DNA from: Lysobacterales bacterium
GTDB lineage: Bacteria; Pseudomonadota; Gammaproteobacteria; Xanthomonadales; SZUA-36
Assembly (NCBI GenBank): GCA_014238945.1
Contig: JABAAB010000115.1
Span: 62,001 to 126,000, forward strand
DNA length: 64,000 bases
Direction: 5' to 3'
Position numbers and translations under genes: made by a program. Under the pieces are notes generated by a model. That model did no database searches, was not told the origin of the DNA, and worked only from the letters and a program-made list of their open reading frames with translations. Positions 6,729 to 45,703 of this stretch are shown here, piece by piece. Numbering within the stretch: position 1 is the stretch's first letter; each line of letters begins with the position of its first letter.

Positions 6729-8624
6729 CTAGTTACCATAGCTGCGGGCGATGTCCTCAAGCTGATCGTCAAACCAGGCACTGGAATTCCATCTGCCGTC
6801 CAGCATCACCCCCAGGATGTCCTTAATATTATCTACAGATTCAATCGGGTTGCTTCCCAGCAATAGCAGATCTGCACGAGATCCTTCGGTGATGGAGCCA
6901 AATGGTACTTCAAGTGCAAGTGTTCTGCTGATGAAGTCTGCACCATTGAAACTGGCTATTCTAATTGCATCCAACGGCTCAATACCGCTGTTTACCAGTG
7001 CCTGGACTTCATCCGCAGCCGAGAACCCCGGTACGCCCAGAACCGTTGGCGAGTCCGTGCCCATCATGATGGGTGCGCCCCCCTGGTGCAGGGCCAGGGT
7101 GAAGCGTCTGAGAAAATCCCGCGTTGGTGTGTAACCACCGTTAAAGCAACCGTCGGGGTTCCAGCGCCACTTCGCATTGATGCTGCGATCATTCAGTCCA
7201 ACGGTCGTGGGGTGCATATAGCGTGTCTCCGCTCGTGCCCAGTAGTTGCTGACTCCGGCAGTGTCATTACACCAGATACGATCTATGATCTCTTCAATTC
7301 CAACGGTAGCGGTGACACTGGTGCCGTTTTCGACGGTCAATTGAACCGCCTGTGCAATTTGTGAATCGCTGGCGCTGGTGTTGCCACCGAAAAACCTCCA
7401 CAGATAGGCACCGGAATGTGCCACCATATCCATTCCATTTTCCAGTGTTTCCCGGGTGCTCATGGTTTGTGGAAAGTGACCAAGCACCGGCATGCCCAGG
7501 CTGTGTGCTTCATCCAGGATGGCCAGTACCCCGTCCCTTGGTGTGTAGTTGTAGATTTTCATAAAATCATAACCGGAATCATACGACTGGCGCGTAAACC
7601 CACGTGCCTGGCTGGCATCGGTAATTGCCCTGTTGGGGGGACCTCCGTCCGGTGTTGTATTGTCGCCACGAGCATATTGAGCGGCGTAAATGTGGGGCCC
7701 GGTCAGGACGCCTGCTTCAACTTCAGTGGCCCAGCGAGGTAATGGCTCGCCAAAGTCGCCATTGTTCAAAATCGTGGTTACACCCCTGGCGAGGTACAGC
7801 ATTAACTGATTTCGGGCGGATTCCTCGATGGTCTGAGCAGAGGGGTTTCCGCCAAGCAATTCACGAACATTGGTCGCCAGGTGAGTATGCGTATCCACCA
7901 TGCCGGGCAGCAGATACCGTGAGCGGCCATCAATGATCATGGCATGCTCCGGTACCAGGTTCACATTGGCATCAGATATTCTGGTGATTATCCCGTTTTC
8001 CACCACGACCATTTTTCTGGTGCGGGTCTCACCAGCGAAAAAATCCAGGTAACTGATGTCCATGAAAACCGTGGTCTGGTGCCGCTCAAGCTGTTCTGGC
8101 ACCGCTTGCAGCGGGCGCAGGGCGAAACAGGCGTTCTCATTGATGGGTATGGCCCGCTCAAGGAAGATATCACCCTGTTCACCCGAATCATCAAAACGGT
8201 AGGAGATCTCGGCCTGGTTTCATGCCGTGAAGCGGATGGTGGCGCTACCAATCTGACTGGTCTGAATGGGCTGGGGACCTAAGAATGCGCCACCGGTGGT
8301 CTGGTAAATTCCGGCTTGTGTCCCGGTGTTTCCATCTGACCAATTCCCCTGGATCGTGTACCAGCGATGATTGGGATGATCTGATTGAACATCTTCAGAG
8401 TCCCTGGGAAAGACAAACCAGCCAATAAACATGACCCGGGGATTTTCGACGACTTCAATTATGAAACCCTGTCCCGGCATCGAGTTGTTCAGCCAGGCCC
8501 CTTTTAATGCTGGCCCGACTGTCAGGTCACCTTTTTCATCTGCAGACAATCCCGCGGGTAGCATGCAGGCAAGACTGAGTAGCCAGCCTGCCCAGACTGG
8601 AATCATGTTGGATCTGTTTGTCAT
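6729..8624 (-). pseudogene. Exported amidohydrolase with N-terminal module, interrupted by in-frame TGA
   Basis: Two open pieces lie in one frame: 8624-8220 (signal peptide 'WAGWLLSLACMLPAGLSA' plus a module with 'GAWLNNSMPGQGF') and the amidohydrolase part (longest ATG/GTG ORF 8102-6729). They are split only by TGA at 8222-8220; the 39 codons between continue the module. The amidohydrolase has 'THTH' metal ligands, a Lys in 'FMKIYNY', 'LGHF', 'VAHSG' and Asp in 'GTDSP', all needed for a binuclear metal site, so the enzyme part is intact. In the two sister modules of this window the TGA position is a Cys, and its partner Cys is still present here. A recent nonsense change is the simplest reading; recoding or a sequence error are alternatives. 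Without the first part the enzyme would lack its export signal. Confidence 0.75.
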
Positions 8625-32020: not shown

Positions 32021-33326
32021 TCAGTCGCTTTCCAGGTCGAGTTTTTCACACAGGGCGATATTGTCGTGTGCAATGCGCTGGATCGGTACCGTGCCTTCTC
32101 GTCCGATTGAGGGGATCAGGTAATTAATGCTGCCGTTGTTACAATCCTCGAAAACCAGGGTGATCGTGCCGTCATTACGACGATTGATCTGGGTTGTGGT
32201 GTCAAACAATCCACCGGAAGCGATACTGATGGTCATGTCTGCACGATTGTCAGTAAAAGAGCCCAGCGCAGTCAGCCAGCGATGCCCTGGGTCACCCAGA
32301 TTGGATGGTGCATCGTCAGTCGGCGGGGCCGTGTCATAGGTAAACCAGGCCAGCGAAACCAGTCCAAGATCGGGAAACACCGTGATAAAAAAGCCCTGGC
32401 CATCGGTCAGGGGGTTGAACCAGGCATCGTTCAGACCGGCGTTGATCTGGAAACCCGGGCAGTTGTCTGAAAAAACACAGGCAGCCCATTTTGGATGGTC
32501 TATAAAGGGATTGCGATTGCCCTGAAATGTGGCCACCGTCTCATGGTGCTGAATTTCAAAACTGTCTACCGGATCTTCCTCGTGCCATAGCAACAGGTCT
32601 GTCAACATTCCCATATGGGCAACGGTCTCGTTGTTGCCAGTATTGCCGTCGTCGATCAGATCCACGTCATCGGTAAGGATCAGGTCGGGTTCGCTGGCAC
32701 CGGTGACCCCGTGGGTGCCGCCAGCATAGCGAAGATCCATGTACATCATGGCCCGGGCCATGTCACCGCGTCGCTCTTTCCAGACCCCCCCAGCGGCCAT
32801 CGGTTAAATCACCATCCGTCCAGTTTGAGTCACCGGGGTATTCTCCCCCATTGCCGCCCCTGCCATTGTTGTTGTCCGTTATGTGTTCACTACAACCCGC
32901 ATCACAGTATGCATAGGGTTTGTTGGACCGGAAAAAATTGTAGTCAGCATCGGCGAGGAACAGGTGGTGCATATCGGTAAAAGGGTAATTCAGATTGCCA
33001 TCGTTGTCCGGGAAACCGTAAGAACGGGGCCAGGTATGCTCTCGGTTGTAGAAATCGTTTCCACCACCGCGTTTCAAGAAACTTGCATTGCGGTACACGG
33101 TGATGATGTGGTTACTGTTGTCGATGTCTTCATCAGCGCTCTCGAGTACATCCCAGGTATCTGTATCTAAAGACGTATAGGGGTAACGCTGGTGATCATC
33201 GATGATGGCATGCAGCGACTCCCGAAGTGTTGCCGCTGATGACCGGTCCACCCCGGTGTAATAACTCTCTTCGGCTATTACAGGCAGGGAAAGCATGATT
33301 CCGGCCAGCAGTGTGGCCCATTTCAC
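32021..33326 (-). pseudogene. Endonuclease I with C-terminal secreted module, frameshifted at a G7 run
   Basis: Two frames make one gene. The first (33326-32763) has a signal peptide ('MKWATLLAGIMLSLPVIA') and endonuclease I motifs 'NREHTWPRSYGF' (catalytic His) and 'YPFTDMHHLFLADADYNFFRSN', and ends 'TDGRWGGLERATR'. The second (32800-32021) continues 'VWKERRGDMARAMMYMDLRY', which is the family's next motif. Removing one G from the seven-G run (32785-32791) joins them. A module with 'GLNDAWFNPLTDGQGFFITVF' ends the protein. A homopolymer slip (mutation, phase variation or read error) is the likely cause. The nuclease would be exported and degrade DNA. Confidence 0.8.
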
Positions 33327-44192: not shown

Positions 44193-44488
44193 TCCTGATT
44201 GTGTTCCAAGCGGTTAATGCAATAATGAGGCCAGATACCGGGGTGTTCCCGATTTCCCCTCCACTCACGCCAAACTGCTATATAATCTGTGGAATAAGTT
44301 GCTATCCGCCTGGCAATCATTATCTTCGCTAACGCTTGCAGCTTGATGGATGTTGGTGGTTTTCGCCAAAATACGGATTTTTACCAAAAGAATTCAACCA
44401 GAGTTACAAACTTCCGATGCTTTGGGTAATATCCATCGGATGCGTATGTCCGCCAACAGTAACGGGAACTCTTGATTCAAGGTCGTCA
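44193..44488. other. Gene-free stretch before SGNH hydrolase
   Basis: About 300 bases between the DUF4097-like protein start and the SGNH hydrolase start at 44489. A longer in-frame start at 44336 adds 51 residues that do not look like a signal peptide or a domain. I see no other gene. It should hold both promoters. Confidence 0.4.
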
Positions 44489-45703
44489 ATGTCTAAAACA
44501 TCAAAAATTTCGTGGTTCAGGTACTTGAACGTCATCGCAATTTACGCTTTATTGGTTATCATCACTGTGCCGGTGCACGCGGCTCGAATACTGGTTGTTG
44601 GTGATAGCTGGGGGGTAGCCGCAGGTCCGGCACTGCAGGCGGTGTTGATAGACGCGGGCAGTACTGAGACGGTGGCCAGTATTGCCGTCGGGGGTGAGAC
44701 CGCAGCCAACATCAACACCCCAGCGTGGCTGGCAACCATCAGCACCGCACTGGAGGATAATCCCGACGCCACCCACCTGCACCTGAGTCTGGGTGGTAAT
44801 GATTTTCTCGGACACTGGAGGGCTTCCAACAGTATGGAGCAAGAGGATCAGCTGGTGGCCGATATACTCGAAGATATAACTGCCATAGTTGATCACATCC
44901 TGGCACAGCGCCCGGAAATACGTATCTACTGGTCCAGCTATGATTTTCCCCGGCCATTGATCATCGGCAACCCTGTTGATGTCAATAATGCGTCCTTGCG
45001 CTTTTCCGTTCATGCCCAGACGCTGGCAGATTCAATGGGTGACGCGCTCAGCTACGGTGATTTCAACGGCATGACCCAGGTGGTTTATGGATTTGACGGA
45101 GTACAGACCTCCGGTCATGACCCTGATTTCGTCATTCCTCCCGGTGATCCGTCGTTACCCGACCCACAGTATCCGGGACCGGCTCCCGCCTATTTTGATT
45201 CAATCCACCTGACACCTGAAGCCTACCAGGTGCTGGCTCAGAAGCAGTACGAACATTTCTATCAATCCGAGTTAAGCTTCCAGATCAATGCAGGACTGAA
45301 TGATGCGTGGTTCAACCCGGTCACCGATGGTCAGGGATTTTTCATTACCGTGTTCCCGGATCTGGGTGTACTGGTTATAGCCTGGTTCACCTATGACACC
45401 GAGCTTCCGGATGAGGGCGCAATGGCAAAATTGGGGGACCCCGGTCACCGCTGGCTTACGGCAGTGGGTCCTTACGCCGATAACCAGGCCGTCCTGGACA
45501 TAACCATTGCATCCGGCGGTTTGTTTGATACCGCCACGGAAATTGATCGCGTGACCGATGGCACCTTGCTGGTGACCTTCAGTGACTGTAACAGCGGTAC
45601 GGTGGAATACAGCATCCCTTCAATTGATCGCGAGGGCACAGTACCCATTCAGAGAATTGCCAATGACAATATTTCCTTGTGCGATGAATTGAGTCAAGAG
45701 TAA
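44489..45703 (+). CDS. Exported SGNH-type hydrolase with C-terminal secreted module
   Basis: A protein of about 404 residues with a signal peptide ('YLNVIAIYALLVIITVPVHAA'). The SGNH catalytic blocks are 'VVGDSWG' (nucleophile Ser), 'LSLGGNDFLG' (Gly and Asn) and 'DSIHLTPEAYQ' (Asp and His). A C-terminal module begins near 'SFQINAGLNDAWFNPVTDGQGF' and ends with two Cys ('FSDCN' and 'LCDEL'), near-identical to the module at 32021. The start is the ATG at 44489, with AAGG nearby. It should be an exported esterase or lipase-like enzyme acting outside or in the periplasm. An AT-rich stretch follows. Confidence 0.85.
   Translation: MSKTSKISWFRYLNVIAIYALLVIITVPVHAARILVVGDSWGVAAGPALQAVLIDAGSTETVASIAVGGETAANINTPAWLATISTALEDNPDATHLHLSLGGNDFLGHWRASNSMEQEDQLVADILEDITAIVDHILAQRPEIRIYWSSYDFPRPLIIGNPVDVNNASLRFSVHAQTLADSMGDALSYGDFNGMTQVVYGFDGVQTSGHDPDFVIPPGDPSLPDPQYPGPAPAYFDSIHLTPEAYQVLAQKQYEHFYQSELSFQINAGLNDAWFNPVTDGQGFFITVFPDLGVLVIAWFTYDTELPDEGAMAKLGDPGHRWLTAVGPYADNQAVLDITIASGGLFDTATEIDRVTDGTLLVTFSDCNSGTVEYSIPSIDREGTVPIQRIANDNISLCDELSQE

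Follow-up and report, generated by a model that had tools for sequence, protein, structure and literature searches.

Does a TGA codon that falls on a conserved cysteine, inside a frame that is otherwise open, signal a selenoprotein or an ordinary gene that has been broken? This question is raised by a minus-strand frame in the window, by which we mean the whole stretch of 64,000 nucleotides of Lysobacterales DNA that was analysed. The initial annotation had described this frame as continuous for 632 codons across the TGA at 8222-8220, and its translation, whose final codon is TAG, agrees. The TGA, at codon 135, is the lone internal stop, and apart from it the frame carries none of the additional decay that would be seen in a gene dead for a long time. 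The following features are considered here:

6729..8624, minus strand: whole frame, from ATG 8624 to TAG 6731-6729, with one internal TGA (translation)
8541..8624, minus strand: putative Sec signal peptide, residues 1-28 (read by eye)
8121..8516, minus strand: accessory module with a beta-barrel fold, cut by the TGA (G000:C64:70121-70516 matches the profile with 115.8 bits; sister-module model, mean pLDDT 85.7)
8220..8222, minus strand: in-frame TGA replacing a Cys codon that is otherwise invariant (orthologue TGT; aligned modules)
6729..8102, minus strand: frame open from the earliest potential restart, GTG 8102 (next start ATG 8063; no clear ribosome-binding site by eye)
6789..7916, minus strand: amidohydrolase domain PF01979, residues 237-612 (E 4.5e-20, 72.6 bits, cut-off 25)

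The putative signal peptide and most of the beta-barrel module are located upstream of the TGA, while the end of the module and then the PF01979 (Amidohydro_1) domain lie downstream. This domain passes the curated cut-off of its family with a wide score (72.6 bits vs 25) and displays its motifs, HxH (DTHTHLA) and GTDSP. The product of the intact gene is probably an exported metal-dependent amidohydrolase with an N-terminal accessory barrel.

The cysteine position and the orthologue

Alignment with sister modules had led the initial annotation to place the TGA on the Cys of a 'DCN' motif. This placement holds, with FEDCNNG at the corresponding position of the gene at 32021-33326 and FSDCNSG in the sister module at 45284-45682, which lies within ORF 44336-45703. 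The second Cys of the interrupted module, which was said to be retained, is indeed present (NENACFAL). The TGA observation, as made from the sequence, is confirmed. The alignment is not due to chance: the column of the TGA holds Cys in all 36 modules aligned from the genus and in all 47 further matches from GTDB contigs that cover the site, and no TGA is found at this column in any of these modules or in the orthologue, which has TGT. It is worth noting that 138 of the 630 sense codons of the amidohydrolase gene are one base away from a stop, and 47 of them one base away from TGA, so that a chance stop on an invariant Cys is unremarkable.

The sole orthologue found, which belongs to the same genus and shares 64% identity, has TGT at the position of the TGA and a frame without any stop. 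The inspection of homologues for TGC/TGT or TGA, as had been suggested, thus returns a cysteine codon, and the natural stop with a separate start that would have pointed to two genes is absent, the orthologue being one frame. An intact orthologue whose sense codon is one base from TGA is also what is expected for a nonsense-interrupted gene. Compared with this orthologue, residues 1-134 give a pN of 0.30 and a pS of 0.84 and the hydrolase part a pN of 0.20 and a pS of 0.68, synonymous sites being near saturation so that only the contrast between these values is meaningful. Similarity is kept on both sides of the TGA and runs through the stop, which argues that the stop is recent or is not real and stems from an assembly error.

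The amidohydrolase gene is rare, being present in 2 of 39 family genomes. Several species of the genus keep the adjoining short-chain dehydrogenase gene, which, in the genome that bears the orthologue, sits on a different contig. This rarity and the location of the dehydrogenase gene on another contig point to an accessory gene. No further orthologue was retrieved from the GTDB contigs by peptide pattern, and a plasmid search for orthologues yielded distant amidohydrolases only.

Possible ways of reading past the stop

One explanation is that SelB and tRNA-Sec, helped by a SECIS hairpin just downstream, recode the UGA as selenocysteine, which would make this protein a selenoprotein form of the module. 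The TGA stands at an invariant Cys, where selenocysteine would be expected, and both the frame and the similarity carry on past it. The factors required for selenocysteine are SelA, SelB, SelD and tRNA-Sec, with SelB as the signature of the trait (PMC5029168). However, no SelA turns up in this genome, which is 98% complete, or in any of the 39 family genomes searched, whereas the positive controls E. coli and M. jannaschii both gave a match. No match to SelB or SelD in the genome exceeds the cut-off: the best SelB-like match reads as IF-2 and the best SelD-like match as ThiL, in view of its sequence and of the neighbouring ribH-nusB genes. Likewise, all eight tRNA-Sec (selC) matches are below the cut-off and are read by ARAGORN as ordinary tRNAs. 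This answers the search for selA, selB, selC and selD that had been recommended. The initial annotation had also seen no convincing SECIS hairpin after the TGA, and folding and Rfam are both in line with this, since the 63-nt RNA taken from the TGA onwards folds less well than 192 of 200 shuffled sequences (z +1.5) and Rfam gives no match of note. Moreover, TGA occupies the site in no relative, and neither the partner Cys nor the absence of a redox domain suggests a catalytic selenocysteine. Selenocysteine, to which we assign a negligible probability, is effectively excluded as far as a 98% complete draft allows. With no machinery to read TGA as selenocysteine, the locus represents either a gene broken in an ordinary way or a mistake in the assembly, rather than a new selenoprotein. 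The preference for a nonsense change over selenocysteine, expressed from the outset, is therefore upheld by the missing Sec machinery, the TGT of the orthologue and the lack of any hairpin signal.

The stop could also be passed independently of selenocysteine if a near-cognate tRNA read UGA at a useful rate, in which case some full-length enzyme would be made and the stop would act as a damper. The similarity maintained after the stop is compatible with such a scheme, as is a survey reporting that in-frame stops are widespread in bacterial genes and can keep dN/dS below 1, but the survey finds these stops to be mostly short-lived (PMC7918605), and a young stop gives the same low pN without any readthrough. 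Furthermore, full-length RF2 is present in the genome, no UCA anticodon occurs among the tRNAs typed (part of 37 tRNA places), the anticodon stems of tRNA-Trp and tRNA-Cys are ordinary and 5 bp long, and the stop is common to no relative. TGA is also the commonest terminator, ending 103 of 236 long frames, and a reassignment of TGA or a suppressor tRNA was rejected on the basis of this usage, of RF2 and of the tRNA features just described. While weak readthrough of UGA is conceivable, we consider readthrough at a useful rate to be highly unlikely, and there is an even slimmer chance that the TGA is real and kept in the population, with Sec-independent readthrough tuning the amount of exported hydrolase. 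In a different arrangement, the TGA would simply end a free-standing module and the hydrolase would be translated separately from GTG 8102 or ATG 8063. These start codons are indeed available 40 and 53 codons after the TGA, but neither is preceded by a clear ribosome-binding site by eye, and the restarted product would be devoid of a signal peptide. Between the TGA and these starts lies conserved module sequence that contains the second Cys, and the orthologue is encoded as a single frame, which makes two genes exceedingly improbable.

The barrel module and other lesions in the genome

The module is about 137 residues long, contains two conserved Cys and is found in the window at 8121-8516, 32036-32449 and 45284-45682 and at about 30 places in the genome. 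It is joined to unrelated secreted enzymes, among them the amidohydrolase, endonuclease I, an SGNH/GDSL hydrolase and others, and its relatives belong mostly to uncultured Gammaproteobacteria. A Pfam search of the module returns no convincing family. In the structure modelled for a sister copy (mean pLDDT 85.7), eight strands form a barrel, for which lipocalin-like and avidin-like matches are obtained, although these are weak (best E 6e-3). The module is possibly a domain for targeting or binding that has so far gone undescribed.

Small frameshifts disrupt two further module genes of this genome. The endonuclease I gene (PF04231), which has a C-terminal barrel module (32763-33326 and 32021-32800, minus strand), contains a frameshift in a run of seven G; its orthologues in two genomes of the genus (L120 and L121) are unbroken, and the sister comparator at 32021 is the C-terminal part of this frameshifted gene. 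In the third module gene (L123, G000:C22:88879-89311, on contig C22), the frame changes inside the module near an ACACAC tract. At a different place (L056 1400-2420, G000:C28), one open frame passes from NHL-repeat-like sequence into the second half of a module, which looks like a junction in mid-domain made by recombination or by a chimaeric assembly. The recurrent lesions in module genes may reflect genuine decay or mistakes in the assembly. The draft genome consists of 126 contigs, and its named GTDB relatives are nearly all metagenome-assembled.

To gauge the base rate, 464 kb of the genome were scanned for further coding frames interrupted by one stop. No other convincing case emerged, with only the most suspicious candidate, a TAA at L113 7680, read closely; it turned out to be two adjacent genes. 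The remaining candidates, judged from the scan table, resemble ordinary neighbouring genes or shadow frames.

Origin of the stop and comparison with known systems

We propose that this locus is almost certainly an ordinary gene, probably for an exported metal-dependent amidohydrolase with a barrel module, in which one Cys codon has become TGA by a recent nonsense mutation or by an error in the draft consensus. In this scheme, an ancestral Cys codon (TGT or TGC) would have been converted into TGA, either by a recent nonsense mutation in this strain or by a single-base error in the draft consensus. Translation would then stop after codon 134, releasing a truncated module and no enzyme. On the barrel model, the last two strands and the C-terminal helix would be missing from this product. 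The finding is ordinary. If the mutation is real, it illustrates on a small scale how an accessory secreted enzyme is lost. The main lesson is one of caution: where SelA and SelB are missing from a genome and from its whole family, a single TGA on a conserved Cys does not constitute evidence for a selenoprotein, and selenoprotein calls that depend on such a TGA should first be screened for these two factors.

The gene resembles the amidohydrolase superfamily PF01979 through its domain match and through significant matches to solved prolidase-like and molinate hydrolase-like enzymes, and differs from it by the addition of an N-terminal beta-barrel module without a convincing Pfam family. With bacterial selenoproteins that have a Cys homologue it shares a TGA aligned with a conserved Cys, whereas here there is no Sec machinery in the genome or family, no SECIS signal and no relative with TGA. 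A further parallel is provided by nonsense-interrupted bacterial genes (PMC7918605), in which, as here, one base change places a stop in an otherwise conserved frame in a single species; there is no difference in principle, but in the present case an error in the draft genome is equally possible.
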